A stretch of DNA of 52,199 bases from a virus: positions 1 to 52,199 of IMG/VR virus record IMGVR_UViG_3300046791_000495, one strand, 5' to 3'. The position numbers and the translations under genes are program-made. How positions within the stretch are numbered: position 1 is the first letter of the stretch; the number at the start of each line of letters is the position of its first letter. Below are positions 59 to 38,259 of the stretch, piece by piece. The notes under the pieces were generated by a model that saw only the letters and a program-made list of their open reading frames with translations, did no database searches and had not been told where the DNA came from.

Positions 59-370
59 TTACTTCTTGTACTTGGCCTTCAGCTCGGCGATCTGCTGCTT
101 CTTCTCCTCGAGCTGCTGCTCGAGGATGTGGCCGATCGCCGGCGCGAGATCCTCGGTCGTCACGAGGATCGCCTCGACGAGCTTGCGCGGGCTCGTCTTG
201 AGCTCCTTCGCCATCTCGCGCAGCTGGCCGGCGCGAGCGCCGTAGATGCTCGCGCTGATCCGGTCGTCCTGGTCGTCGTCCGTCGCTTCGTTCGGAACGG
301 CCGTGGGTCGCGCTGCCGCCGTGCTCTCTTCGCCGTCGAGCGGGTCGAGAGGGTTGATCGCCTTCACCAT
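59..370 (-). CDS. Hypothetical 103-aa helical protein
   Basis: Family not recognised. The first 40 residues are acidic and probably disordered. Residues 45-103 are predicted helical and end in a short Lys/Glu/Gln coiled coil. The stretch REMAKELKTSPRKLVEAIL resembles the helices of small DNA-binding proteins and is similar in style to part of the protein at 1231-1512. It is the last gene of a three-gene minus-strand unit, 3 bp after the nuclease gene, and is followed directly by an intrinsic terminator. Confidence 0.7.
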   Translation of the reverse strand: MVKAINPLDPLDGEESTAAARPTAVPNEATDDDQDDRISASIYGARAGQLREMAKELKTSPRKLVEAILVTTEDLAPAIGHILEQQLEEKKQQIAELKAKYKK

Positions 371-373
371 GTC

Positions 374-1228
374 CTACTCCTTCTGCCCGGGCTCCGCCCG
401 GACGGTTGCGCCCCCAACGACGACGGCCACAGGCCGCAGTGCGTGGGGGCAGAGATCCCAGAACCCGCACCAATGCTGGCTGCACCACCAGTTGCTTGGG
501 TCGGTCGGGTTGAAGTTGCCTGAACGGATCAGACCAGCGGCGCGCCGCGTGCGGTCCAGGTACTGCGCCATCTGGTCGCGCGAGCGCGTCGTCGGCTGCT
601 GGATGATCTTGGTTTCTTTCTTGAGCGTGACGATCGTGTCGAGCGACAGACTCGCTGGCGGCACGCCGTCCGTGATGGTCTTCATCGTCGCGTACGCGGT
701 CAGCTGCATCGAATTCTCGGCGGCGTCGGCCGGCGGCGACTTCCGCGACGACTTCAGGTCGCGCTGGACGTTCGCCTTGGTCTCGACGTCGGAGTAGCCA
801 GAGAAGTCGATCGGGCCCGTCTCGCAGTCGATCTCGACCTCGTACTTCCGCTGGATCGTCAGCGGGTCGAGGACCGGCGCGAGTTCGATCGCATGCTGGC
901 GCGCCATGCGCACCGCGCGATCTTTCGCGACGCCGATCGCCGCTTTGAGGCCAATGTCGGCCTCGTCGGGCTCGAGCACCATGCCGTCCTTCTCGATCTC
1001 GGCCGCGACGGTGTCGCGCGCGATGTCGGAGACGACGTCAAGCTCGAGCAGTTCGCCCGTCAGCATCTTGCTGCCGAGGTTTTGGTTCGCCGCGCTATCG
1101 ACGCCGCGGCCGGTGACGAGCGCCGAGCCCGGAGGCCGGCGCATGCCCTTCATGTAGACGTACTCGAACTGGACCGGGCACTTGGCCAGCATCGAGAGTC
1201 GGCTGTGCGACAGCTTGATTCGCTCCAC
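374..1228 (-). CDS. PD-(D/E)XK nuclease of the RecB/Cas4 type
   Basis: 284 aa. The N-terminus (LSHSRLSMLAKCP) is the typical opening of PDDEXK_1 (RecB/AddB/Cas4-like) nucleases. Catalytic-type residues are visible as Asp147 in GYSD, Asp157-x-Lys159 in DLK, and the downstream QLTAY helix (Gln175). Cys17 together with Cys249, Cys254 and Cys260 gives the split four-cysteine pattern seen in AddB and Cas4 proteins that carry a 4Fe-4S cluster. Phage members act in recombination or replication as exonucleases, but no recombinase or polymerase partner is visible in this window. It sits 2 bp downstream of 1231-1512 in the same minus-strand unit. Function is inferred from motifs. Confidence 0.8.
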   Translation of the reverse strand: MERIKLSHSRLSMLAKCPVQFEYVYMKGMRRPPGSALVTGRGVDSAANQNLGSKMLTGELLELDVVSDIARDTVAAEIEKDGMVLEPDEADIGLKAAIGVAKDRAVRMARQHAIELAPVLDPLTIQRKYEVEIDCETGPIDFSGYSDVETKANVQRDLKSSRKSPPADAAENSMQLTAYATMKTITDGVPPASLSLDTIVTLKKETKIIQQPTTRSRDQMAQYLDRTRRAAGLIRSGNFNPTDPSNWWCSQHWCGFWDLCPHALRPVAVVVGGATVRAEPGQKE

Positions 1229-1230
1229 GG

Positions 1231-1512
1231 TCAGTCGCCGTAGAAAGGAGGCTTCTTCGGCATCTTCTTCGCGCTCTTGATCGCATCGTTCGCGGCCTTC
1301 AGCGCTCGCGTCCGGTGATGCTGCGAGTACGTGTCGGCGCGACCGCGCAGACCGAGGCCGGCGAGGATCGAGGCGATGTAGTTCGCCGCCGAGATCTTGA
1401 GGTGCTTCGCCTCGGCGATCAGCTGCTTGCGGAGGTCGACGTCGAACGGATTCAGGTACAGGTAGTCGGGTCGAACGGGTCCGGCGCGCTCTGGTTTCGT
1501 GCTAGGGTCCAT
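1231..1512 (-). CDS. Hypothetical 93-aa protein, possible ribbon-helix-helix-like
   Basis: Basic C-terminus and a central segment LRKQLIAEAKHLKISAANYI that looks like the two helices of a ribbon-helix-helix (CopG/Arc-like) DNA-binding domain; this is a weak call by eye. The ATG at 1512 is used here. An upstream GTG at 1554 would add 14 residues, but a TTGACA hexamer lies between the two. Neither start has a convincing Shine-Dalgarno. It is the first gene of the minus-strand unit ending at the terminator at 10-52, and is divergent from 1601-1972. Confidence 0.6.
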   Translation of the reverse strand: MDPSTKPERAGPVRPDYLYLNPFDVDLRKQLIAEAKHLKISAANYIASILAGLGLRGRADTYSQHHRTRALKAANDAIKSAKKMPKKPPFYGD

Positions 1513-1600
1513 AGCCACAGGAAGGTAGCAGATATCCTTTGTCAACGCAAGCACCCCGTTTGGCGATCAAGCCGACGGATTCGTTTGGAGACGCTAGGGA
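1513..1600. promoter_or_regulatory. Divergent start region with a TTGACA hexamer
   Basis: This 88-bp gap separates the minus-strand nuclease unit from the plus-strand gene at 1601. A perfect TTGACA lies on the minus strand at 1545-1540, and the overlapping TTGTCA reads on the plus strand at 1539-1544. No good -10 hexamer is seen at 17 bp on either strand, so this is only a candidate promoter pair. The plus-strand gene has GGAG at 1587-1590, 10 bp before its ATG. Confidence 0.3.
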
Positions 1601-1972
1601 ATGACCCCCAAGGAAGAGCTGCAAACCCTATTAGCCTCAGTAATTGCCAGCGGAGAGCTCCTGCGGTCGATCGCGAGTACTTTCGTCGAGAGAGACATGG
1701 ACCTGATCGACGACAAGACCCTCCGGATAAGGCTCGCCATGGCGGTCGCCAACGGGATCGCCACCCAGGTGGAGGTGCTCACCGGCGAGCGGCTCACGGT
1801 CGAGGGAGTCGAGCCGTCGGTGGGCATCGCGGCGGCCGCGATCGCTCGGGCGGAGGCGCTGGCGGCAGTCAGTAGCGGGCCGGACGAGAGGATGCTCGAG
1901 CTGGTGAACGGCATGACGATCTCGCTCGAGCGGGTGGAAGAGGTCGCGCGGAAACTGTCGATCCAGATGTAG
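1601..1972 (+). CDS. Hypothetical 123-aa helical protein, isolated plus-strand gene
   Basis: Not recognised. Almost entirely helical, with no cysteine, aromatic-poor and acidic, suggesting a small helical-bundle or regulatory protein. It is the only plus-strand gene in the left part of the window. It has its own upstream gap, a GGAG ribosome site at 1587-1590 and a strong hairpin straight after the stop. That arrangement (one gene plus its own terminator, opposed to its neighbours) is typical of a recently acquired cargo gene, but its function cannot be read from the sequence. Confidence 0.65.
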   Translation: MTPKEELQTLLASVIASGELLRSIASTFVERDMDLIDDKTLRIRLAMAVANGIATQVEVLTGERLTVEGVEPSVGIAAAAIARAEALAAVSSGPDERMLELVNGMTISLERVEEVARKLSIQM

Positions 1973-1974
1973 AA

Positions 1975-2012
1975 GAAAACGGCAGCGGGGCTTCGGTCCC
2001 GCTGCCGTCGTC
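1975..2012. terminator. Bidirectional intrinsic terminator
   Basis: An 11-bp perfect stem (1979-1989 with 1998-2008) closes a loop containing CTTCGG. On the plus strand it follows the gene at 1601-1972 by a few bases. On the minus strand the stem is followed by GTTTTCTTC, a good U-tract, so it can also end the long late transcript arriving from 2108. A second hairpin (6-bp arms 2073-2078 and 2087-2092) lies between it and the stop codon at 2108. Confidence 0.8.
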
Positions 2013-2107
2013 TCTTGGGTCGCCGTGGGTGTTGCGCGTCGGTGGGCTCGAGCCTCCTTGTCGTGACCTACTCTCGCCCCGAAGCCGGCGAGTCGTTCAT
2101 CAACTGA

Positions 2108-2908
2108 CTACGGTTGCGATGGGATCCAGAGCTTCGGCGAGTAGTAGACCCAGCCGCGCCACGCGCCGACGATCGGCGAATGATCATAGCCGGCCTCGAC
2201 GCCGACGCCGTGCCAGAACTTTCCAGTGCTCGACATCCAGATGTGCTCGGCGCCGACGCTGCCGCCCCAGCCAAACCGCGTCCCGTCGAGCGACAGCTGC
2301 GACGCAGCGAGCTCGTCGGCGATCGTCAGGTTCGCGTTCCCCCAGAGCGCTCCTCCGAGCTTGAGCGAGTAGAGCGTGCCGCTCGAGAAGTCGAACAGGC
2401 CGGCTTTCTTCGGCGGCTTGCACGGGTCCCACTCGGGGATGAGTTCCCAGTCGGCGCCGCGCGCGGGGATCACGCCGTGCATGTGGCCGCGCGTCTCGCA
2501 CGGGGCCTGGACGACCCGCTCCGGCAGCACCACGCCGCCCTGGGCGACGATCTGCTTCGAGATCTCCTCGGGCGATGCGGTCGGCGCGATCGGCGCCTCG
2601 CCTCGAGCGGCGCGCTGCTCGTTGAGGAGCGAGAGGAGGATGCCCGTCATGGCGGCGCTCTGATCGGAGTTCCGCCCGGGCTGCTGCTGCATCAGGCGGA
2701 GGAACTCCTGCTGCTGGGCCTGCATCCCGGCGACCAGTTGGAGGAGGACCTGCGTCTCCTGGGTCGGCGCCGCGTCCTTCGGATGCTCTGCGATCGTCGG
2801 CAGCGCCGGCTTGGGCGGCGGCGGCGTCGGGCGACCGATCCAGATCCCGAACAGCATGATCGCCGCCCCGGCGATGGAGCCGCCAGCTACGTACCAGCGT
2901 GTCCGCAT
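2108..2908 (-). CDS. Membrane-anchored protein at the end of the lysis cassette
   Basis: 266 aa, family not recognised. One N-terminal membrane segment (about residues 7-25) is followed by a Pro-rich linker and a Gln-rich helical stretch (residues 50-80). The C-terminal 90 residues alternate polar and aromatic/Gly residues (GGALWGNANLT, FGWGGSVGAEHIW, WRGWVYYSPKLW) and end in aromatics, as in short outer-membrane-type beta strands. It is last in the late transcript, overlapping the small membrane gene upstream by ATGA. A role in the final, outer-membrane step of lysis is possible from its position and membrane-plus-beta layout, but this is inference. Confidence 0.6.
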   Translation of the reverse strand: MRTRWYVAGGSIAGAAIMLFGIWIGRPTPPPPKPALPTIAEHPKDAAPTQETQVLLQLVAGMQAQQQEFLRLMQQQPGRNSDQSAAMTGILLSLLNEQRAARGEAPIAPTASPEEISKQIVAQGGVVLPERVVQAPCETRGHMHGVIPARGADWELIPEWDPCKPPKKAGLFDFSSGTLYSLKLGGALWGNANLTIADELAASQLSLDGTRFGWGGSVGAEHIWMSSTGKFWHGVGVEAGYDHSPIVGAWRGWVYYSPKLWIPSQP

Positions 2909-3078
2909 CAGCCCGCCGAGAATGCGAAGCGACCCAGCAGGTAGATGATCCCGATCACGATGGCGAGCACCGCGAGGAACCTCTGCATGAACGGCTGCGG
3001 GCCGCCGAAGAACTGGTTGAGCCCCCAGATCAGGAACCAGAGGCCGAGGAGGACGGGGAGCGCTGCGGTGATGGTCAT
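2908..3078 (-). CDS. Holin-like protein with two membrane segments
   Basis: 56 aa with two hydrophobic segments (about residues 3-20 and 33-50) separated by a short loop. This is the size and layout of a class II holin, which would make the membrane holes that let the endolysin at 3741-4244 reach the cell wall. The ATG at 3078 is chosen because AAAGGAG sits 7 bp upstream; a longer reading to 3159 would overlap the upstream gene with no ribosome site. Its stop overlaps the next start by ATGA. Assignment rests on size, topology and neighbours. Confidence 0.6.
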   Translation of the reverse strand: MTITAALPVLLGLWFLIWGLNQFFGGPQPFMQRFLAVLAIVIGIIYLLGRFAFSAG

Positions 3079-3091
3079 CTTGGAGCTCCTT

Positions 3092-3751
3092 TCAGTGCGT
3101 GCAGGCCGTCCAGTGGAGTACCGGATAGCCGTCCTGCCCCACTTCGCAGCCGGCGTCACAGGAGCACAGCTGCCAGTTCACGCAGCCGTCGGCGTAGGCG
3201 CGCCAAAGTCTGGCGTGGCAGTCGTCGAGCGGCTCCTGCTTCGTGTCGGGTGCGCCGGGGTGGGCTGTCGAGTGGAAGATCTCGGCACAGCGCGCCGGGT
3301 CCGTCCCGGCGAAGGCCGGCGTCGAGAGCATCCCGCCGATCTCCATCTCGTTGCGGTCGTCCAGCGGGGTGAACTTCTCGCCGGTCAGGTTGACGAACTG
3401 GCCGCGCGCCTTCTGGGCCGGGTCGACCGGCGTCCGGTAGGCGTAGAGGTTGCCGTCGTGGTAGTGGCGCACGGCGGAGCGGCCGCCGGGGTCCGTCGCC
3501 ACGGTGACGTCGGCGTCGGGCGTCTCGGCCAGGTAGCGCGAGGCCATCACCATCTGCTCGGCGACGGCGCGGTCGAACTTGATCTTCCCCTTCGTGAACG
3601 GCGGGAGCTCGGCGAACCAGAGGCCGAGCGACACGACGCAGGCCATCACGAAGAGCAGCACGAGGACGCGCGCCTTCGGGCCGAGCGGGATCTTGATCGA
3701 CTTGTCGCCGATGCCGATCGAAACGTCCTTGTCTTCCGTCTCAGGTGGCAA
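3092..3751 (-). CDS. Hypothetical single-pass membrane protein of the lysis cassette
   Basis: 219 aa from a TTG start at 3751, which has GGAGG 5 bp upstream; no ATG is suitably placed. It overlaps the end of the endolysin gene by 11 bp. One membrane segment (about residues 28-48) is followed by a domain of about 165 residues whose last third holds many cysteines, suggesting disulfides and an extracytoplasmic location. It lies between endolysin and holin-like gene, so a lysis role (for example spanin-like or a lysis regulator) is plausible, but no family is recognised. Confidence 0.6.
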   Translation of the reverse strand: MPPETEDKDVSIGIGDKSIKIPLGPKARVLVLLFVMACVVSLGLWFAELPPFTKGKIKFDRAVAEQMVMASRYLAETPDADVTVATDPGGRSAVRHYHDGNLYAYRTPVDPAQKARGQFVNLTGEKFTPLDDRNEMEIGGMLSTPAFAGTDPARCAEIFHSTAHPGAPDTKQEPLDDCHARLWRAYADGCVNWQLCSCDAGCEVGQDGYPVLHWTACTH

Positions 3752-4244
3752 CGTCGCCTCCGTGCTTCTTGTACTCGGCCAGCACGCTGTCGACCTTCTC
3801 ATGCCGCTGCGGATACTGAGAACCGGGCAGACTCGCCCAGCACGACGCGCAGAGCGCGATTGCCTGCCGCACGTTCCCGGCGATGACGTCGTCGAGCGCC
3901 CCCTCGCGGATGATCAGCGCGACCGCGCGCTCGTCCTGCTGCTCCGGAGAGAAGTCCGTGAAGCCCCACTTGGCGAGCAGGTCCTTCTCGGTCCGCCAGT
4001 TGATCTGGTACGCGCCGAACGCAGTGCTGTCCGCCGTCCCGTCGCCGTCGCCGTCGCCGGGGCCGTCCTTGTCCACGTCGACCAGCTTGCGCGGGTGGTG
4101 CGAGAGGTCGTAGACCATCTCGCCTCCGACCAGCCGGTGGTAGCCCAGGTCGTCCTTCGTCCCCTCGCCGAGCCGGATCGCCCGGAGGAAGGCCTTGACG
4201 TTACCGACGAGCAGAGCATCGCGCAGTTCTTGACGATCGCGCAT
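3741..4244 (-). CDS. Endolysin, lambda R-like lytic transglycosylase
   Basis: 167 aa, start ATG 4244 overlapping the upstream stop. The sequence follows lambda R along its length: AFLRAIRLGEG with catalytic-type Glu27, GYHRLVGGE, DLSHHPRKLV, AYQI, FSPEQQDERAV, IREGALDDVIAGNVRQAI and SCWASLPGSQYPQ. The enzyme cleaves peptidoglycan without hydrolysis; it has no signal peptide, so it needs a holin. Unlike lambda R it carries an Asp/Gly-rich insertion (residues 56-72) before TAFGAYQ that resembles calcium-binding loops. It heads the lysis cassette, followed by two membrane-protein genes and a holin-like gene. Confidence 0.9.
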   Translation of the reverse strand: MRDRQELRDALLVGNVKAFLRAIRLGEGTKDDLGYHRLVGGEMVYDLSHHPRKLVDVDKDGPGDGDGDGTADSTAFGAYQINWRTEKDLLAKWGFTDFSPEQQDERAVALIIREGALDDVIAGNVRQAIALCASCWASLPGSQYPQRHEKVDSVLAEYKKHGGDVAT

Positions 4245-4573
4245 CACGCCACCTTCTGGTTCTTGACCTTGAGGATGCAGGTCCGCTCGTAGACGCGCGT
4301 CGGCGGACCGGAGGCGACCGTGGCCCTGCACGTGACCGGGTAGGAGATCTCGTCCGTCCCCTCCGAGAGCCAGACGCGCACCTTCATGCCGCCCAGCATG
4401 ATCTCCGGAGCGTAGGCGCCGTCGCCGTTCACGAGCTCCGGCGGGTCCTCGCCGTCGACTGGATCGAGCGCGATCTCGACCGAGTCGATGGTGTCGCCGG
4501 CGACGCTGAGCTCCGGCGTGAAGTCGAAGACGTAGTCGAGCCGATCGTTCGGATCCTTCGGGGCCCATGCCAT
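4244..4573 (-). CDS. Small Ig-like virion protein, fibre/tail adaptor type
   Basis: 109 aa, opening with WAPKDPNDRLDYVFDF and ending CILKVKNQ. This matches the pattern of small beta-sandwich phage proteins (WPKDPxxxLDYxxDW ... SVTLKVR) usually found beside fibre genes and regarded as adaptors or decorations. It overlaps the endolysin by ATGA and follows the repeat-protein gene, which fits a fibre-associated role. The family recognition is from memory of the pattern. Confidence 0.65.
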   Translation of the reverse strand: MAWAPKDPNDRLDYVFDFTPELSVAGDTIDSVEIALDPVDGEDPPELVNGDGAYAPEIMLGGMKVRVWLSEGTDEISYPVTCRATVASGPPTRVYERTCILKVKNQKVA

Positions 4574-5496
4574 CAGTTCACCTCGACGTTGCGATCAGAG
4601 TACGGCGTGGAAATCTCGCGGTCAACCGCCGGCACCGAGACCTCTCGGACGGCGACGGCGACGACGACGGTTCGTTCCGTGACGGCGACGGCGACCTCTC
4701 GAGCGGCAACCTCGACCAGGACCTCGCGGTCGATCGGGCCGATCAGCACGATCCGGCTGCCCGGCGGCAGTTTCTCGGAGACGAAGCCGCTGGCATAGGC
4801 GTCGAGCTGGGCGTCCAGCGTGCCGGCGAAGACGATAACGCCCTCGCCTCCGGCCGAGGCGTCCAGTTGCCCGCCCAAGGTGCCGAAGAAGCCGACGGCC
4901 ATCACGCCGCCGGCGTAGGCGTCCAACTGGCCGTCAAGCGTGCCGAACAGGGAGACCACCGGGCCGCCGGCGGCGCTCGCGTCCAGTCGCCCATCGAGAG
5001 TGCCCGCCAAGGTCACCAGGGCCCCGCCGGCGGCAGCGGCCTCGAGGACGGCAGCGAGCGTGCCCGACAGGACGACTACGCCTCCACCGCCGGCCTGTGC
5101 GTCCAGTTGGGCCGCCAAGGTCCCGGCCAGCGCCACGAGCGCCGATCCGCCGGCCGTAGCGCCGAGCTCGCCGGCCAACGTGCCGGCCAGCACGTGGAGG
5201 CCACCACCAGCGGCCGCGGCGTCCAGCTGGGCGGCAAGGGTGCCAGCAAGTACGTGGAGCCCACCACCGGCCGCCTGGGCGTTCAGCTGCGCCGCCAAGG
5301 AGCCGGCGAGAGCGTGGAGCCCGCCGCCGGCCGCGGCAGCGTCAAGCTGGCCAGCGAGCGTTCCGGAAAGGGCGTGGAGGCCGCCACCACCAGCGGTTGC
5401 ATCCAGCCGGCCGTCGAGCGTCCCTTCGAGGACGACGGTTGCGCCGCCGCTCAGCCCGGCGTACGGAACCGAGGCATACGGAGCTCCGGCGAACAT
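4573..5496 (-). CDS. Repeat protein with eleven 20-residue units, probable fibre/spike component
   Basis: 307 aa. Residues 21-240 are exactly eleven copies of a 20-residue unit with the core xGTLxxxLDAxAxGG and no length variation. A unit of this length with periodic Gly and small hydrophobics suggests a beta-solenoid. Residues 256-307 are a second array, nearly six copies of a 9-residue unit of the type DREVLVEVA. The N-terminus (MFAGAPYASVPYAG) is an opening seen in phage structural proteins. It lies between a glycine-rich adhesin gene and the small Ig-like protein, with one-base or ATGA-type junctions. A related unit occurs in the tail protein at 16135-18759. Confidence 0.75.
   Translation of the reverse strand: MFAGAPYASVPYAGLSGGATVVLEGTLDGRLDATAGGGGLHALSGTLAGQLDAAAAGGGLHALAGSLAAQLNAQAAGGGLHVLAGTLAAQLDAAAAGGGLHVLAGTLAGELGATAGGSALVALAGTLAAQLDAQAGGGGVVVLSGTLAAVLEAAAAGGALVTLAGTLDGRLDASAAGGPVVSLFGTLDGQLDAYAGGVMAVGFFGTLGGQLDASAGGEGVIVFAGTLDAQLDAYASGFVSEKLPPGSRIVLIGPIDREVLVEVAAREVAVAVTERTVVVAVAVREVSVPAVDREISTPYSDRNVEVN
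4777..5436 (-). repeat. Eleven tandem 60-bp coding repeats
   Basis: Codons 21-240 of the gene at 4573-5496. Each 60-bp unit encodes one 20-residue repeat. Units differ by point substitutions but not in length, so copies are diverged yet in perfect register. Adjacent units in the middle (about 5140-5400) are the most alike, suggesting recent unequal duplication there. Confidence 0.85.
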
Positions 5497-7652
5497 CAGC
5501 CGATCCTCTCGATGACCGCGAGGCCAGAGCCGCCTTGCGCGGAGGCGTTCTGGTTTGTGACTGGGGCGCTATTGCACAGCCCACCACTTCCAGATCCAAT
5601 CAAAGCAAAAGCCGCGGACATGTCGATGCCTCCTGTCCCCCCGAGGTTCCCGCAATGACCGCCAAAGATCCCGCCGACCGCTCCCGTGATCGTCGTGGGT
5701 CCAGTTATAGATGACGCTGATTGAGTACCCGCACCCACGCATGGAGTTGCACTTCCGGAACCGTTCATCTGGAAGAGCGGGTGCGAGAGTGATTCAAGAC
5801 CCTGTTTCGTGAATTGGCCCGCGCTGTTCCTCAGTTCACCATCTGCGCAGATAGATACTGGATCGTAACCAAGGCGAGAGGTCCCGCTGATCGCGGTCGT
5901 CGCATTCCCTCCGGTACCGGCCCCAGTTCCTATGGCACCCGATGTCGACGAGCCCACGAACCCACCGACCGCCCCGCCGCCCCCGTTCCGGTTTGGGGTT
6001 GCTGCCGCTGCGGAGCCGCCGTTCCCACCAGCGCCCGACGGACTCCCACAAGCTCCGCCGCCACCAGAGCGCATACCGGAAGCCTGGCCCGGTCCTGAGC
6101 CGCCATCTCCCCCCTTGTAGTTGATGTCTCCGCCCCTGCCTGCTCCTGCCAACCCCCCGGACGCTGTCGAGTTGGTGATCGTCGCCGCCCCGCCTGTCCC
6201 CCCGGTTGCGAAGATGCTTATCCCGCCACCGAGGATTGACGTAGTTCCGCCGTCGCCGCCCGTTGCTGCTCCATCGGCGCCAACCGCGACTGTCGCCGAA
6301 GCCCCCCGCGCCCCGATTTTGATATTGAGCACCGTTCGCGCCGTCAGCCACGTCTCCTTCTGAGAGAACCCACCACCGCCGCCGCCGCCCGCTTGTCGAG
6401 TCCCCGCCGCCGCCGCTCCACACCCTCCTGCTCCACCGCCACCGATCACGCTCAGCCGATAGAACCCGTCGTAGGGCACCGTGTACGTCGTGTCGGCGAT
6501 GAAGAACAGCGCCGTCTGGCGGCAGTAGACGACCTTCTTGAACGGGCTCGACTCGCGCGGCTCTGCGACGCGCTCGACGATGGCGATGCCGCGCCCGCTC
6601 GACCCGCCGGTGCAGGTGCCGGTAGTCTTGGTCACCGAGCCGCCACCGCCGCCGCCGATGAGCGGCTGGAGTGCGGTTGCCGTGCCGGAGACGAGAGCGA
6701 AGGCGCCGCCGCCGCCGAGCATCGAGCCTTGGAGTCCAGCGCGAGGATCGTTGACGAACCCGCCGGCGCCGGGGCCGTTGTTCGTGATGACCACGCCCCC
6801 GCCTCCTGCGCTGAAGTAGCGGAGCGGGTCTTGGAACGACTCAAAGCCGAAGGCGAGCGACGATGTGCTGGGCTGAGTCCGAACGTGGCCGTCGAGCGAG
6901 TTCAGAGAGTGCGGCAGGTTGAACGTCGACGAGTCCATCCGGGCGCGTGTGTTCCCGCCGCCGCATCCTGCGCCCGAGCCGTTGTTCGAGTTGACTGCCG
7001 TCGAGACAGCGGGACCGTCGAAGCCGTACACGCTCCCGCCTCCGGTGCCGACGACGAAGCCGCTCGCGGTCACCGCCGCCGAGCCGCCGCTCCCGCCTTG
7101 GTACGTCCCGAAGGAGCGAATCCCGGCGGGGAGTCCGCACGAGCCGCCGCCGGACGCCGCCACGGACGCGCCCGTCTCAGAGCAGTCGCCGCCGTTGCCT
7201 CCCGCAGAGTTCCAGTCGCCGCCCCATGCGACGCCGCCGAGCGCGCCGGTCTGACTGCCGCCGGTCGACGCGGCGCCGCCCTTGCCGCCGCCCGCGAACA
7301 GGTTGATGCGCGGGCCGGTGACGATCGCGTCGCCGCCGTCCGTTCCGTTCCCCCCGACGTTGCTCGCTCCAGTCGAAGAACCCCCAGCGACGGCTGCTGG
7401 GATCGTGATCCGCAGGACGTCGCCCGCGTTGAGGAAGACCGTCTTCTCGCACAGTCCACCACCGCCACCGCCAGAAGCGCAGCCGCCGGTCGTGTCGTTC
7501 CCGGCGAACGCCGCACCGCCGCCGCCCGCTCCGATCGCCGCGACGCGGTACCAACCGGCGTAGGGGACCGTCCAGTTCGTGGTCAGGCGGAAGAACATCG
7601 CGCAGCTTGCGCCGCGCTGGATCGGCGTGACCCGCCGAGGAAAGGCGCCCAT
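5496..7652 (-). CDS. Glycine-rich adhesin-like protein with two repeated modules
   Basis: 718 aa, exceptionally Gly-rich with many GGGG runs and few charged residues. It contains two related modules. Each opens with a WTVPYAGWYRVAAIGAGG-like segment (residues 26-43 and 390-407), has a long Gly-rich body with an F-E/D-S-x-x-x-P motif, and ends in a G-x-A-x-x-E-R-I/V motif (354-362 and 710-718). Gly-rich phage adhesins (for example S16 gp38) pack poly-glycine II helices and bind host receptors, and this is the likely role. It starts 3 bp after a third copy of the module (7656-8741) and overlaps the repeat-protein start by one base. Confidence 0.75.
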   Translation of the reverse strand: MGAFPRRVTPIQRGASCAMFFRLTTNWTVPYAGWYRVAAIGAGGGGAAFAGNDTTGGCASGGGGGGLCEKTVFLNAGDVLRITIPAAVAGGSSTGASNVGGNGTDGGDAIVTGPRINLFAGGGKGGAASTGGSQTGALGGVAWGGDWNSAGGNGGDCSETGASVAASGGGSCGLPAGIRSFGTYQGGSGGSAAVTASGFVVGTGGGSVYGFDGPAVSTAVNSNNGSGAGCGGGNTRARMDSSTFNLPHSLNSLDGHVRTQPSTSSLAFGFESFQDPLRYFSAGGGGVVITNNGPGAGGFVNDPRAGLQGSMLGGGGAFALVSGTATALQPLIGGGGGGSVTKTTGTCTGGSSGRGIAIVERVAEPRESSPFKKVVYCRQTALFFIADTTYTVPYDGFYRLSVIGGGGAGGCGAAAAGTRQAGGGGGGGFSQKETWLTARTVLNIKIGARGASATVAVGADGAATGGDGGTTSILGGGISIFATGGTGGAATITNSTASGGLAGAGRGGDINYKGGDGGSGPGQASGMRSGGGGACGSPSGAGGNGGSAAAATPNRNGGGGAVGGFVGSSTSGAIGTGAGTGGNATTAISGTSRLGYDPVSICADGELRNSAGQFTKQGLESLSHPLFQMNGSGSATPCVGAGTQSASSITGPTTITGAVGGIFGGHCGNLGGTGGIDMSAAFALIGSGSGGLCNSAPVTNQNASAQGGSGLAVIERIG

Positions 7653-31826: not shown

Positions 31827-32609
31827 TCACGCGACGCTCGCCTGCCGCTCGACGGCACTCGCCGTCAAGATCGGCACGATCACCGATCGGGACCCAATGT
31901 GGGCCGGAGGCCGCACGCTGGAGTCGAGTGGATAGACCTTCTTGTAGTCACCAACGATGCGCTGATCCGGCTCGGTCTCGGTCGCCCACCGATAGCCAGC
32001 GATCCAGGACGGTCGCTCACGAAAGAGCCGCAGGAGGCCGCCGTTGTGGATGTCGGCCGCGACGGTCCGCAGCAGGCTGAAGAAGGCGATCATGCTCCAC
32101 TTGGTGGCGTTCTCGAGCTGGTGATGCGCCGTCTCGGTCCTGCCCGGAGGGAGCTTCCGGAGGACCTCGATCATCTTGCCCAGCTTGCCGGAGACGAGCC
32201 GCTCGATCGGCGCCGGGCCGATGATGTCGAGCGCCCACGGGTCAGTGGCCTCGACGTCGACCGACTCCTCCGCGAGCGACACGCTGACGTCCAGGGCGGC
32301 CGCGATCTCGCCGAGCTGCTGGTGGACCAGCGGTCGGATCTCTGCAGTCGCTTCCGCCGCAGCGCCAAGGTAGCGATCGATCTGCGTGGCCTTCGCCTCC
32401 TGCATGACCCGCATGCCGGCGCCGGTGACGCTCAGCCGGCCGCCGCCCATGATGGCGCGCGACAGTGCGGCCGACACCACGCCCTCGATCAGCTGCGCAT
32501 TGGTCGGGGCCAGCGCATGGACCTGCCGGGTAGCGGCGGTCACGACCAGCGCCTGGATGGCGTGCTCGGAGGCCATCACGCGCGCGGCGATCTCCGTCTC
32601 ACGCGTCAT
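31827..32609 (-). CDS. MuF/SPP1 gp7-like minor head protein
   Basis: 260 aa. Mostly helical, with a C-terminal segment YPLDSSVRPPAHIGSRSVIV that follows the PPAHxxCRSxxVP ending of Mu gpF/SPP1 gp7-like proteins, though a Ser replaces the usual Cys. Such proteins bind the portal and enter the head. It overlaps the portal gene end by 11 bp and precedes the scaffold, which is the normal order. Confidence 0.65.
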   Translation of the reverse strand: MTRETEIAARVMASEHAIQALVVTAATRQVHALAPTNAQLIEGVVSAALSRAIMGGGRLSVTGAGMRVMQEAKATQIDRYLGAAAEATAEIRPLVHQQLGEIAAALDVSVSLAEESVDVEATDPWALDIIGPAPIERLVSGKLGKMIEVLRKLPPGRTETAHHQLENATKWSMIAFFSLLRTVAADIHNGGLLRLFRERPSWIAGYRWATETEPDQRIVGDYKKVYPLDSSVRPPAHIGSRSVIVPILTASAVERQASVA

Positions 32610-34212
32610 TCTTGGCCTTCCCTGCCCGCTTGGACTTCTCGGCGTCGTCGTTCATCTCGCGCTTGGTCGACCCGCCATCGCTGGGCTTCCCGCTGTCGCC
32701 GGCGGCCGCCGCGGTGATCGACTCCATCTTGAACAGCTGGGACATCTCCTCGGCCGCTTCCTTCTCGAGCTCGGCGTCGTTGTCCTTGGCGTTGAACTCC
32801 ATGCCGAACAGATTCTTCTTGTCGAGCGCGGCGATGAAGTACTTGCGCGAGAGATCCTTGCCGCGGCGAACATCCAGCATCACCCGCATCTCTTCGATGT
32901 CGCGGTAGCTGAAAGCGAAGTCGGTGTTGACGTCGACGTAGCCGGGGTTCGCGGCCGCCTTCGGTTCGATCGACGCCCAGATCTTGGCCGTCAGCAGGAT
33001 CGCCCGGTTGAGGCCGTCGGTCAGCGACATCGCGTTGACCTGCATCTCGCTGACGGAATCGGCAACACCGTAGGAGGCCGCCGTGGCGGTGACGTTCGAG
33101 ACCTCGGGGATCAACAGCTGGAGCGCGGCCTCGGCCATCTGGGCCTGGAGGAACTCGAGGTCCTCCTTGCCGGCGCCGATCGACCCGCCCTGCGTCTCCT
33201 TCCAGTCGAGCGTCGCGCCCGGGGTCTCGACGATGGTCGCGACGTTCGGGGCGATGATGAGCTCCTCGTCGTCGTCCTTGATGCCAGAGCCGAACAGGAA
33301 CGGCACGCGGGCGAGGTGCAGGATGTGCCGCTGGTCGGACGTCGACTGGTAGTGGACGATGTTGATGTCGGTGAAGTCCCGCAGCGGCGGGCGAGCGCTC
33401 ATCCGCTCTGACCCGTGCATCGGGATCGCCAAGATCGGGATCTCCTGGTAGGACGTCGCGCCGTGGAGCTCGATCTCCCAGTCGTTACTGCCGACCTCGT
33501 ACTTCCAGACCGTGAACACCCCGGGCTCGAAGACCCGGATGCGGTGGACGATCCCAACACCGTACCGGCCGGAGGCCTCGAACGAGCAGTCGTAGTAGCG
33601 GAACTGCGTGAGGTTGCCGTCCTGATCGAGCCGATAGCCGAGGACCTGGTCGGCCGCGATGTGCCGCCAGTAGGGACGCAGGCGATCGCGAGCGATCCGA
33701 TCGAGCGTGACCGTCTTCTGCGGCTTCCCTTCGGCATCGACCACGCGCGGGAAGTCGACCTGGATGAACCCAATGCCGTCGAGAGTCGCGTTGTACAGCA
33801 GGGCGCGAGCGTAGACCTCGAGACGCGTTCCGTGAAGGTCGACGTCTTCCAGGAAGGTCATCATCGGCGCCGCCATGTCGGCGGAGCGACGGATCGGCTT
33901 CGTGAACGGCTTGCCCGAGAGCGTGACGGCCGCGCGCTTCACGCCGTTGAACAAGTAGCTCCGGCGCAGACGCGCCTCGTAGTCTTCGTTCTCTTCGCCG
34001 CGCTCCTGCGGCAGATACTCCGTGCGCAGAGACTTCACCCACCACTGCCCGCGCTCGAAATCACGAACCGGCTTGCGGATGAATCGATCGAGCAGGACCT
34101 CTTCGGTCGGGATGGAGGGATCGTCTTGCGGCTCGAGCGATGACGAGCGCGGAAGGATAGGAGAGAGGTAACTCTCGGTCGGTACGAAATCGATAGCGCT
34201 GCGCTCCGACAT
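32599..34212 (-). CDS. Portal protein
   Basis: 537 aa. Helix-rich with a central region (VHYQSTSDQRHILHLARVP, FLQAQMAEAALQLL) and tail as in DUF4055-type portals, which form the ring through which DNA is packaged and ejected. The C-terminus is charged and probably disordered. It follows terminase (with one opposed gene between) and precedes the MuF-like gene. Confidence 0.85.
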   Translation of the reverse strand: MSERSAIDFVPTESYLSPILPRSSSLEPQDDPSIPTEEVLLDRFIRKPVRDFERGQWWVKSLRTEYLPQERGEENEDYEARLRRSYLFNGVKRAAVTLSGKPFTKPIRRSADMAAPMMTFLEDVDLHGTRLEVYARALLYNATLDGIGFIQVDFPRVVDAEGKPQKTVTLDRIARDRLRPYWRHIAADQVLGYRLDQDGNLTQFRYYDCSFEASGRYGVGIVHRIRVFEPGVFTVWKYEVGSNDWEIELHGATSYQEIPILAIPMHGSERMSARPPLRDFTDINIVHYQSTSDQRHILHLARVPFLFGSGIKDDDEELIIAPNVATIVETPGATLDWKETQGGSIGAGKEDLEFLQAQMAEAALQLLIPEVSNVTATAASYGVADSVSEMQVNAMSLTDGLNRAILLTAKIWASIEPKAAANPGYVDVNTDFAFSYRDIEEMRVMLDVRRGKDLSRKYFIAALDKKNLFGMEFNAKDNDAELEKEAAEEMSQLFKMESITAAAAGDSGKPSDGGSTKREMNDDAEKSKRAGKAKNDA

Positions 34213-34263
34213 CTCGCTCCACGAGCTCGAGTCCGGCGTTGCGCAATCCCCAGGGCGCCGGTG

Positions 34264-34285
34264 AGTATAGACGAACCGTTGTCAA
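34264..34285 (-). promoter_or_regulatory. Possible promoter elements upstream of portal
   Basis: On the minus strand TATACT (34269-34264) matches a -10 element well. A perfect TTGACA (34285-34280) lies only 10 bp upstream, too close to pair with it, and the hexamer at 17 bp (CTGGCC) is poor. A promoter for portal and downstream head genes is likely because a plus-strand gene separates them from terminase, but the exact elements are uncertain. Confidence 0.35.
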
Positions 34286-34394
34286 GGGCCAGGTCTGGAC
34301 ATTTTTTCTCCGCAGGAGTACCCTCCCGGCGGGGACTGGGGGTACAGCGTTGGTACCCGCCGGCGCCAAGGCCCTCCTTCGCTCCCCTCTGACC

Positions 34395-35057
34395 ATGGAT
34401 CCGATCGTCTTCGACAGCCCGGACATCCAGGTCTTCCCGAACCGAAAAGCCCACCTCGAGTACGCGATGTCGGTCGCGCCCAGCGCCGGCATCATCGCCG
34501 AGTTCGGCGTCCACAAGGGAACGAGCCTGACGCGCCTCGCGTGCATGGCGAGTCGCCATCACCAGATCGTCGGCTTCGATTCCTTTCGCGGGCTCCCGAG
34601 CGCGTGGCGCATTCAGGACAGCGAGGACGAGTCGCACCCGGCCGGCAAGTTCGACACCGGCGGGCGCCTGCCGTCGGTCCCGACCCGCTGCATCCTCGTG
34701 GCGGGCTGGTTCGACCAGACCGCGAAGGTCCTGCGGTCGATGATCCTCGAGCGCGACACGCCGATCGCGCTCCTCCACATCGACTCCGACCTGTGCGAGA
34801 GCGCCACGACCGCGCTCAACGCGGCGCAGCCGGGGCTCCAGACGGGTTCGATCGTGGTGTTTGACGAGCTGGGCAACTGGGATGGCCGCTACCCGCTGTT
34901 CCGCGAGGGCGAGTGGAAAGCGCTCGAGATCTTCCAGCGCTCGTGCCCGTGGATCCGCTTCGACCCGATCAGCCGATCCGTTGCGCAGCAGGCATCATTC
35001 CGAATCGTGCGTGCCGCCGAGCGTCCTTCTTCTGGTTCCGTCGGTGCAGTCGCTTGA
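34395..35057 (+). CDS. TylF-type SAM-dependent O-methyltransferase
   Basis: 220 aa from ATG 34395. Contains the SAM-binding motif I (IAEFGVHKGTSLTRLA, about residues 34-49), an acidic loop VGFDSFRGLP and LLHIDSDLCESATTAL, the Asp-rich metal and catalytic segment of TylF/Methyltransf_24 enzymes. Relatives mostly methylate sugar hydroxyls. Start is uncertain: no Shine-Dalgarno precedes the ATG, and an in-frame TTG at 34350 behind GGGGG is an alternative. It is the only plus-strand gene within the late block, opposed to terminase and portal, suggesting separate control or acquisition. Its 3-prime end overlaps 34969-35190 by 89 bp on the other strand. Confidence 0.8.
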   Translation: MDPIVFDSPDIQVFPNRKAHLEYAMSVAPSAGIIAEFGVHKGTSLTRLACMASRHHQIVGFDSFRGLPSAWRIQDSEDESHPAGKFDTGGRLPSVPTRCILVAGWFDQTAKVLRSMILERDTPIALLHIDSDLCESATTALNAAQPGLQTGSIVVFDELGNWDGRYPLFREGEWKALEIFQRSCPWIRFDPISRSVAQQASFRIVRAAERPSSGSVGAVA

Positions 35058-35190
35058 GGTGCTTGCGCGCTCGCGCTCGCGCCTTCGGATCGCTCTCCAG
35101 TAGGTCCTGACCTTCCTTCGGCTTCGCCGGCAGCCCCATCTTGATCAAGTAGGACTCCATGTAGGGGCCGATCGGTCGCGAGGTCTTCAT
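34969..35190 (-). CDS. Hypothetical small basic protein after terminase
   Basis: 73 aa, strongly basic (ARARARKHLKRLHRRNQKKDARRHAR). AGGAG lies 6 bp before ATG 35190, and it starts 9 bp after the terminase stop, so it is likely translated with terminase. Such composition suits nucleic-acid binding, for example a packaging or portal-related accessory. Its last 89 bp overlap the opposed methyltransferase gene tail to tail. Confidence 0.6.
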   Translation of the reverse strand: MKTSRPIGPYMESYLIKMGLPAKPKEGQDLLESDPKARARARKHLKRLHRRNQKKDARRHARFGMMPAAQRIG

Positions 35191-35199
35191 GTCGATCTC

Positions 35200-36717
35200 C
35201 TAGAGGCTGGCCCGCACGGCGCGGATCCTCGCGCCAGTCGAGCGGCTCATGCAAGCGTAGCGGGTTTCGTCGGCGCCGTGGTCTTCCGCCTCGGTGTCGA
35301 TGTCGTCGAGGTTGCGCTCGTCGCGCACGAGGGTCGGGACGGTGCGGAGCCAATGCGTGCAGGTGTTGAACACGTAGAAACCGGGGCGCTCGCGATGGCC
35401 GGCGGCGCGCATCAGGCCGATCAGCCGCTGCCAGCCGGTGATGCGACTGTTGTCGGCGGGCTCGAAGGCGAAGCGCGGGATGTCGGCCGGCAGCGTGCGG
35501 GCGCCGGCGCGCATCTGGTCGTAGATCGATGGTCCGCCCTGCTCGGTGAAGATCGACGGATCGGCAACGCCGTAGGCCCAGTACTTCTGCTGCTGCGAGA
35601 GCTTCATGGCGATCCGAGCCCCGGCCTCGGCGTTCGATAGCCGCAGTCCGACGTTCGACTCGATCTGCTTGTGGCGATCGTACGAGACGGTGTAGTCCTC
35701 GGCGAAACGCAGGATCGAACCGCGCGGGAAGACGCGCCCGCGGCACCAGCCGGCATAGATCGGCGTGCCGTCGGAGGCGGCGTACATGCCGAGGCTCGAG
35801 GGCTTCGCACTGCCCCAGTCGAACGAGTAGAAGAACGACCACGTCGGCGGGATCTCGAACGGAGAGAGCACCGAAGCGCTGCCGTCCCAGATGTCGGAGA
35901 AGAACCCGCCCGCCACGATGTCCCAAATGCCCCACCGCCACGCTTTCGCGAGGTCCTTGTTGCCGACGCCCATGATGACGCTCTCGTACTCGGGGTCGTT
36001 GTCGGTGAGGATCTTGTTGTCTTCGAGACGCGAGGGCAGGAAGACGTACTCCTTGCCGCTCTCCTGGTCGCGCATGACCTTGCGGCCAGCCGGCGCCGGA
36101 TCGACGTAGCGGGCCTTTACCCAGCCATGGCCGACACCGCCTGGGTTGCCCGTCAGACGGATCCCGCACGGCACGCCCTCGGCCGATCGCAGCGTCGCGC
36201 GCAGGAGGTTGATCGCGTCCGGGTCCGGCCATTGGCCGCACTCCTCGACGTAGACGCGCGTGTAGGCGTGGCCCTGGTAGCGAGCCGCCACGGTGGTGTC
36301 CTTGCAGTGGCGGATCTTCAGCGATGCGCCGGACGGCGCGTGGAACGTGTGCGAGGCGGCGTTCCACTTGTAGCCGAGCGGGATGAGGATCTGCTTGCCG
36401 CGGTCGATCACCTGCTCGAGGTCGATGTGGAAGCGCCGGAAGAACACGCCCTTGGCGGCCGCGCCGTAGGTCTGCTCGTGCTCCTTCCAGTCGCCGAGCA
36501 TCCCGTCGGTCTTGCCGCCGCCGCGAGCTCCACCGAAGAAGACTTCGAAGGTGTCGCGGTAGGTGGTGACGAGATCGGTCTGTGGGCCGGGCTGCGGCGT
36601 CCACGTCGTCGGTAGCGATTCGCGCTCCGAAGCCTCCGGCGCGATGTTGTCCGCCAAGGTCTCGAGTGCGCGCCAGATCAGCTGCTCCCCCGGAGCAACC
36701 GCGATCATCTTGCTCAC
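35200..36717 (-). CDS. terL: Terminase large subunit
   Basis: 505 aa. Walker A GGARGGGKT at residues 62-70 and Walker B RVYVEE at about 154-159 give the packaging ATPase. The C-terminal nuclease part shows FDWGSAKPS, VADPS and a final acidic group (DDIDTEAEDHGADETRY). It cuts and pumps DNA through the portal. Start ATG 36717 overlaps the small-subunit gene end by 4 bp, as expected for a terminase operon. Confidence 0.93.
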   Translation of the reverse strand: MSKMIAVAPGEQLIWRALETLADNIAPEASERESLPTTWTPQPGPQTDLVTTYRDTFEVFFGGARGGGKTDGMLGDWKEHEQTYGAAAKGVFFRRFHIDLEQVIDRGKQILIPLGYKWNAASHTFHAPSGASLKIRHCKDTTVAARYQGHAYTRVYVEECGQWPDPDAINLLRATLRSAEGVPCGIRLTGNPGGVGHGWVKARYVDPAPAGRKVMRDQESGKEYVFLPSRLEDNKILTDNDPEYESVIMGVGNKDLAKAWRWGIWDIVAGGFFSDIWDGSASVLSPFEIPPTWSFFYSFDWGSAKPSSLGMYAASDGTPIYAGWCRGRVFPRGSILRFAEDYTVSYDRHKQIESNVGLRLSNAEAGARIAMKLSQQQKYWAYGVADPSIFTEQGGPSIYDQMRAGARTLPADIPRFAFEPADNSRITGWQRLIGLMRAAGHRERPGFYVFNTCTHWLRTVPTLVRDERNLDDIDTEAEDHGADETRYACMSRSTGARIRAVRASL

Positions 36718-37577
36718 CGAGCCGCCATCTCCTTCTCCTCGAGGTCGTCCTGCTCGTTGGCCTCAACGACCTCGGCAGTGACCACATCCTCGTGGTAGCG
36801 ATCGCCGAACGCGGCCGCGCGGATGCCGTCGGAGATCCTCGACAGCACGTTCCGGTCTTTCACTTCCTGCCCGATCAGGATCGAGATGCGCGCCACGAAG
36901 GCCGCCATCATGTCGGGCGTCACGTTGCCCTGAAGGAACTCGTTCCGCTTCCGCTCGGTCTCGACCAGCCGGCGCCGGACCTCCATGTTCTCGTGGACGT
37001 CCGCCCAGGCGCGGTCATCACCGAGGCCCTTGACCAGCACCTCGTCGATGCGGTCGAACGCCCTCTTGGCGTCGGCATCCTCGCCGCGGTCGATGGCGCG
37101 CTGCAGTTCGCTGAAGAGCGCGCCGAGCTCCTTCCAGCTGGCCCCGGACTCGTTGGTGTCGAGTCGCTGGATCAGCTCGAGCTCGCGCGTCTGGCAGAGC
37201 GCGATCTGCCGGCGGAGGTTCTCGAGCTCCGGGTCGCCCAGGGCGGCGAGGAAGTTGTGCCGCAGCTTGAGCGGCAGGTACTTCGAGTACATGCCGTGCT
37301 TGAAGAAGTGCGAGGCCGGGCCCTTGAGGGCGAGCGCTCCGTGGTAGCGGCAGACGCTCGATGGCAGGCGCGCCCATTGCTTGCAGCGCTCGCCGGTCTG
37401 CCGGTTCTTGGCCGTGCAGCGCCGATCGTCCGGCGGCATCGGGACGGCGCGCTTCGATGGCCCGACGGCGGTTTCCGCCGGCGACTCAGGGACGACCGCC
37501 CCGCTCTCCGGGTCGGGTTCGTCCCCCTCGGGCTGCTGATGCGCGAGGACGTCGAGTTCGTTCTCGCTGGTGCTCAC
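36714..37577 (-). CDS. Putative terminase small subunit with a Cys-His motif
   Basis: 287 aa. An acidic disordered N-terminus is followed by Cys54, Cys65, Cys76 and His79 (RRCTAKNRQTGERC and SVCRYHGA), the zinc-type CxHG motif found in phage terminase small-subunit-like proteins. The rest is helical. It would recognise the packaging site and recruit the large subunit, whose start it overlaps by 4 bp. Confidence 0.75.
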   Translation of the reverse strand: MSTSENELDVLAHQQPEGDEPDPESGAVVPESPAETAVGPSKRAVPMPPDDRRCTAKNRQTGERCKQWARLPSSVCRYHGALALKGPASHFFKHGMYSKYLPLKLRHNFLAALGDPELENLRRQIALCQTRELELIQRLDTNESGASWKELGALFSELQRAIDRGEDADAKRAFDRIDEVLVKGLGDDRAWADVHENMEVRRRLVETERKRNEFLQGNVTPDMMAAFVARISILIGQEVKDRNVLSRISDGIRAAAFGDRYHEDVVTAEVVEANEQDDLEEKEMAAR

Positions 37578-38035
37578 GCGTCGAGATCCGCCAACCAGAT
37601 GGCCATCGCGGGCGTCTCTGTGTCGCTCGTCGAGTGCTGGACCGAGAGTGAGATCAGCATCGCTTCGGCGACCGGCAGGCTCGGGACGATCACGCAGGCC
37701 AGGAAGCGCGCGATGTTCTCGAGCGTCGGGTTGTAGGGCAGGAAGCGGACCGAACCGCCTTCGCGCCCGATCTCCTCCGCCAGTGCGAGGTCGTTTTCGT
37801 TCAGGAGAGCAACGCCCTGGAAATGCTGGTGCAGGTGCGACTGCAGGGCGCCGAAGAGATCGGAGCTCGGAACCTCTCCCCAGCCGTTCACGGGGCTACC
37901 GGCGATGGCCGATGTGAAGCGGGCCTTGACGATGAAGATGTGCGAGTGGAGATCGCGGCACGGATGCTGGTCGGCGGCGATCCGGTGGTACGCGCGGAAT
38001 TCGGCGGTGACTTCGCGGACGATCATCGTGGGCAC
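37574..38035 (-). CDS. QueD/6-pyruvoyl-tetrahydropterin synthase-like protein
   Basis: 153 aa from a GTG at 38035 with AGGAG 8 bp upstream; ATG 38026 would leave a 17-bp spacing. It carries the QueD pattern: His17 in FRAYHR, Cys26-x3-His30-x-His32 (CRDLHSH), HQHF at 69-72, LLN at 77-79 and PTLEN at 103-107. QueD makes 6-carboxy-tetrahydropterin on the way to preQ0, used for tRNA queuosine and, in some phages, 7-deazaguanine DNA. By eye the usual Asp before the catalytic His is Gln70, and the substrate-anchoring Glu is not in its expected place, so activity may differ. It overlaps the terminase small-subunit start by 4 bp. Confidence 0.7.
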   Translation of the reverse strand: MPTMIVREVTAEFRAYHRIAADQHPCRDLHSHIFIVKARFTSAIAGSPVNGWGEVPSSDLFGALQSHLHQHFQGVALLNENDLALAEEIGREGGSVRFLPYNPTLENIARFLACVIVPSLPVAEAMLISLSVQHSTSDTETPAMAIWLADLDA

Positions 38036-38040
38036 GGATC

Positions 38041-38259
38041 TTACTCCTGTCCAGATTGCGACCCGCCCTCGGGGTCCATGTGGTCCCTGGGGGAGTGGTC
38101 GTAGGCGATCTTCCCGCCGGCCCGGTCGTGGTTGACGCAGACGATCTCGCCGCAGACATAGCAGTACCTCTCGGCCGGCGCCTCGATCGGCGCGCAGGCG
38201 TCCGATCCATCCAGCCCCAGAGCCCCTCGGCCATCGAAGAAGCACAATCTTTCGCCCAT
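38041..38259 (-). CDS. Small Cys-rich protein heading the packaging operon
   Basis: 72 aa with a central CYVCGEIVCVNHD segment, likely a zinc-binding knuckle, and an acidic disordered C-terminus. It is the first gene of the minus-strand late transcript that includes QueD-like and terminase genes, 5 bp upstream of the former. GGGGG lies 5-6 bp before the ATG. Function unknown. Confidence 0.6.
   Translation of the reverse strand: MGERLCFFDGRGALGLDGSDACAPIEAPAERYCYVCGEIVCVNHDRAGGKIAYDHSPRDHMDPEGGSQSGQE

Follow-up and report, generated by a model that had tools for sequence, protein, structure and literature searches.

A QueD-derived protein encoded beside viral terminase genes keeps its putative zinc site, lacks conserved catalytic residues and may be a pseudoenzyme

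The record IMGVR_UViG_3300046791_000495, from a bacterial virus, was analysed over its full 52,199 nucleotides (hereafter the window). On its minus strand, at 37574-38035, lies an ORF encoding a protein of 153 amino acids, which opens with a GTG at 38035, immediately preceded by the Shine-Dalgarno sequence AGGAG, and closes with a TGA at 37574-37576; an ATG at 38026 is an alternative start. The GC content at its three codon positions (0.66/0.44/0.86) is similar to that of the terminase and portal genes, and out of the six frames only its own gave a positive coding score. This is a real gene, the product of which is called here the QueD-like protein.

The gene lies second in a series of five on the same strand. 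Directly upstream is the gene for a small Cys/His-rich protein of 72 amino acids (38041-38259), which matched no family above cut-off. Downstream come, in order, a putative terminase small subunit (36714-37577), proposed from its position before the large subunit gene and its coding signal, with no named family; the terminase large subunit, TerL (35200-36717, 505 amino acids), which matches phrog_2 at 5.8e-28 as well as 628 phage records; and the portal protein (32599-34212; phrog_145, 9e-73). The TGA of the QueD-like gene overlaps by four bases the GTG (37577) of the putative small terminase gene, so that the link to the terminase genes claimed in a previous sequence-only reading of this DNA holds, as a matter of gene order only. 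A 632-amino acid minus-strand ORF at 34889-36787 was considered as a terminase and rejected, because it is 35200-36717 that matches the TerL families. Between TerL and portal, about 1 kb (34213-35199) is without a clear gene and has ORFs on both strands, two of which gave no PADLOC match. Close to the left end of the record, 374-1228 (minus strand) encodes a PD-(D/E)XK nuclease (PDDEXK_1, 6.4e-15). Another large terminase, encoded at 1653-4178 (plus strand) of L002, carries an insertion resembling an intein in its Walker A loop (GGARGGGK / ... IVTHN / TDGLL).

The QueD-like protein scored 33.8 bits against the Pfam PTPS family (PF01242), for a curated cut-off of 22.4, and matched the QueD-like phrog_2389 at 4.8e-11. 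A PTPS profile was built from 155 relatives (67 IMG/VR loci, the remainder from phages and bacteria), the window protein being left out; run against the six-frame translation of the window, it found the ORF at 2.6e-16, which excludes a chance match. An AF2 model made from an alignment with 18 viral relatives (pLDDT 85.8) has the strand and helix order of a T-fold, and a PDB search with it returned PTPS structures, E. coli QueD among them, as top matches (E about 1e-5); as that alignment was built from QueD relatives, the model and the family assignment are not independent lines of evidence. A single-sequence AF2 model (pLDDT 34.8) was discarded. Sequence and predicted fold thus place the protein in the PTPS/QueD superfamily (PF01242, COG0720) and not in another T-fold family, an outcome that the previous reading had named as one that would refute it. 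The score against the QueD equivalog TIGR03367 was, in contrast, well below the cut-off (23.1 bits versus 89.25). An anti-phage defence family was also considered and rejected, since PADLOC gave no match for this protein.

In E. coli QueD, we take the active-site residues to be Cys27, Asp70, His71 and Glu110, and the zinc ligands to be His16, His31 and His33 (positions counted on the sequence). Residue count and alignment agree with the QueD-type spacing previously reported for the window protein. The three putative zinc ligands, His17 (37985-37987), His30 and His32 (within 37940-37948), all align with a His present in 155/155 relatives, and Cys26 (37958-37960), corresponding to the catalytic Cys of QueD, is likewise found in every one of the 155. 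The PTLEN motif was also correctly read: it occupies residues 103-107 (37715-37729), where the relatives have the P in 153, the T in 152 and the E in all 155 cases. By sequence comparison, the putative zinc ligands, the Cys and the PTLEN strap are therefore preserved.

The remainder of the active site is not. The Asp-His dyad, invariant in the 155 relatives, is replaced by Gln73-Gly74 (37814-37819), the local sequence FDH having become FQG, so that both members of the dyad are missing. A frameshift concealing the dyad was rejected: residues 72-82 align without a gap, up to the invariant Asp82, and the other minus-strand frames are non-coding. The previous reading was right about the Gln in place of Asp; the catalytic His that it took to be kept next to it is in fact a Gly. 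The PTPS-I signature is the motif CxxxHGH (PMC5041015), and the window protein has CxxxHSH instead, with the Cys and both His present and the Gly changed to Ser31, where all 155 relatives have HGH. As for the late Glu (residue Glu110 in the E. coli enzyme, and a Glu in 155/155 relatives), its reported absence stands in three alignments, which put His134 (37634-37636) at that position, and is contradicted by one small alignment, which puts Glu140 there across a six-residue insertion. The predicted strand at residues 125-135 of the AF2 model favours His134, and we consider replacement of the late Glu by His134 as the most likely reading of the alignments and the model.

Gly31, Asp73, His74 and Glu134 are each found in all 155 relatives, and the window protein is alone in breaking all four positions (Glu134 by the main alignment); the Gly31 count is partly biased in that some of the relatives were retrieved by a pattern that contained HGH. 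The remaining retrieval patterns either stopped before the Gly of HGH or sat in PTxEN, and none spanned the Asp-His dyad or the late Glu. Over the columns conserved at 90% or more, the window protein has lost 12 of 24, the next worst relative 9. As judged from these alignments, the damage to the active site exceeds that previously described.

No close homologue was found with the protein as query, whether in phages (by tblastn), in viral contigs or in genome contigs. The nearest sequences are alphaproteobacterial QueD proteins, at 34% identity over about 110 residues, together with two viral ones (L127 and L128). The 385 genomes searched from the nearest bacterial class yielded no degenerate relative; the single weak match of that class-wide search, L251, lay in a frame with a stop, was not reproduced by tblastn and was rejected. 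In a tree of 106 rows, the end branch of the window protein is the longest. It measures 10 changes per column, a value at the limit of the tree program, where the median is 0.79, and this great length makes its placement unreliable. Descent from QueD is supported by the sequence comparisons. With one sequence lacking close homologues, in a record that is possibly incomplete (see below), function is a matter of inference.

Pfam searches of the whole 52,199-base record for QueC, FolE, radical SAM and TGT gave no match, and custom profiles made from viral loci for queC, queE, folE, dpdA, queF and parB found none of these genes in it. Custom terL and PTPS profiles do find their genes in the window. 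For DpdA the custom profile is the better test, the Pfam TGT model being insensitive to the phage protein, which it missed in relatives. The absence from the window of a QueC, QueE, FolE or DpdA-like partner, remarked on before, is thus confirmed. One or more pathway genes lie within the retrieved flank of about 6 kb at 66 of the 67 viral QueD loci. The exception, L128 (IMGVR_UViG_3300009537_003053; QueD at 5478-5912), has an intact active site, has no adjacent pathway genes and is situated among replication genes, between a recA-like and a PDDEXK gene. The window record is linear and without end repeats, and family scans recognised no replication gene in it, save a possible DnaT-like ssDNA-binding match; it may therefore be incomplete, and the assembly could lack partner genes, so that the lack of the full set queC, queE, folE and DpdA applies to these possibly incomplete 52,199 bases. 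The proposal that the protein feeds 7-deazaguanine DNA modification finds no support here: the Asp-His dyad, the Gly of HGH and probably the late Glu are lost, and no partner is present in the record. As far as its sequence can tell, the protein does not support 7-deazaguanine modification of the DNA of its own phage.

Cassettes for 7-deazaguanine (preQ0/dPreQ0) synthesis are known in phages (Hutinet et al. 2019, PMC6884629). In the actinophages Megan, CRB2 and Typha, a cluster of dpdA-like, queD, queE and folE genes, with queC as well in Megan and CRB2, stands directly upstream of the terminase, the dpdA-like gene being annotated as a queuine tRNA-ribosyltransferase. The window resembles these phages in having a QueD-family gene upstream of, and near, the terminase; it differs from them in that queC, queE, folE and dpdA are absent and the catalytic residues of QueD broken. 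Out of 80 contigs with a TerL like that of the window, one, L106 (IMGVR_UViG_3300037634_004045), has 7-deazaguanine genes directly upstream of its terminase: positions 127-4501 encode queC, queF, dpdA-like and ParB-domain genes, followed by the small and large terminase genes. The L106 TerL is 42% identical to that of the window, whereas its small terminase is dissimilar; unlike the window, L106 has queC, queF, dpdA-like and ParB_N genes, and it has no QueD on its 4.9 kb. A positional link of the window gene to terminase-adjacent 7-deazaguanine cassettes is thus supported, and a lone QueD-like gene sitting where such cassettes occur fits a cassette remnant.

The same position in the operon, with the four-base overlap with the putative small terminase gene and the retention of PTLEN, could be taken to favour a pterin- or purine-binding factor acting with the terminase in DNA packaging. 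That idea was not borne out in its pterin-binding form, the late Glu being probably lost and the link to the terminase one of gene order only. Moreover, a PTPS gene was absent from all 25 TerL-related records searched, so that packaging in the TerL group of the window does not need one, and in Megan, CRB2 and Typha an ordinary biosynthetic QueD likewise adjoins the terminase. We regard a packaging role as very unlikely.

An enzyme with a rebuilt active site, in which zinc and Cys26 would work with Gln73, His134 or Glu140 as substitutes to make 6-carboxytetrahydropterin (CPH4) or another pterin, has in its favour the intact zinc ligands, Cys and strap. It also has a precedent in the PTPS of Plasmodium (PTPS-III type), a protein of the PTPS fold whose active site is altered: a Cys to Glu change alone gives it a different product (PMC2229834). 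The Plasmodium enzyme has lost the Cys and kept activity, whereas the window protein keeps the Cys and loses the Asp and His. Four universally conserved positions changed together, with no intermediate relative, and the absence of pathway genes from the record speak against activity in the window protein, which we find unlikely. With respect to QueD/PTPS-I (6-carboxytetrahydropterin synthase), what the window protein shares is the T-fold, the zinc His triad, the Cys in CxxxHxH spacing and the PTxEN strap; what sets it apart is Gln-Gly for Asp-His, HSH for HGH, probably His for the late Glu, and a score below the equivalog cut-off.

The protein could instead be a decaying relic without function: the cassette would be gone and this gene, so far undeleted, would persist through its overlap with the packaging genes. 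The loss of catalytic residues, the lack of partners in the record and a branch length at the limit of the program are what one would expect of such a relic, and the overlap of its stop with the start of the following gene may guard it against deletion. Yet the ORF is intact, its codon bias is normal and its ribosome-binding site is good, and at about 30% identity the protein still has the Cys, the strap and the whole zinc His triad. In a substitution-only simulation of neutral drift, 7.5% of the copies were still open at 34% identity; added to the conservation of the zinc ligands and the Cys (four positions), this lowers the likelihood of pure decay, although the argument is a rough one that bears on one sequence lacking close homologues. 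A relic in decay is, to us, an unlikely explanation.

We rather favour, on balance, the view that the window protein had a phage or bacterial QueD as its ancestor and is today a pseudoenzyme, a PTPS/QueD family protein without catalysis. Most likely it represents what is left of a 7-deazaguanine cassette beside the terminase, possibly repurposed, and it is probably retained as a folded, zinc-binding protein. A whole preQ0 cassette beside the terminase would have lost the partner genes and left the lone QueD-like gene, the product of which would still fold as a zinc-binding T-fold oligomer and be retained by selection for a non-catalytic role.

What this role might be is suggested by the architecture of PTPS, where the active-site Asp and His are contributed by the neighbouring subunit. 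A homo-oligomer of the window protein, devoid of any Asp-His pair, is therefore unlikely to synthesize CPH4. In PTPS, an intersubunit catalytic triad and the zinc site together form the active site, as the title of Burgisser 1995 has it (cited in PMC2229834). A mixed oligomer with intact QueD is conceivable, and could be either poisoned or working at some of its sites. For the pseudoenzyme, the likeliest role would be to mix with intact host QueD across the subunit interface, contributing a zinc/Cys half-site there or poisoning the hexamer, with a structural or zinc-binding role as the next choice. Taken by itself, the specific proposal that QueD was turned into a non-catalytic zinc subunit which joins the QueD hexamer of the host, there to poison it or to provide nothing but a zinc/Cys half-site, is improbable; were it true, host queuosine or 7-deazaguanine metabolism would be altered during infection.

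In the literature searched, we found no comparable QueD pseudoenzyme in a phage, and nothing relevant on QueD2 or on QueD with terminase. When a phage carries a QueD-family gene, this is read as pointing to 7-deazaguanine modification of its DNA. The present case indicates that a terminase-adjacent QueD match above the Pfam cut-off can be without the catalytic residues and, within the record, without any of the partner genes, so that annotation based on homology would mislead. Should the protein really serve some purpose, it would count as a QueD pseudoenzyme through which the phage might act on queuosine metabolism in its host.
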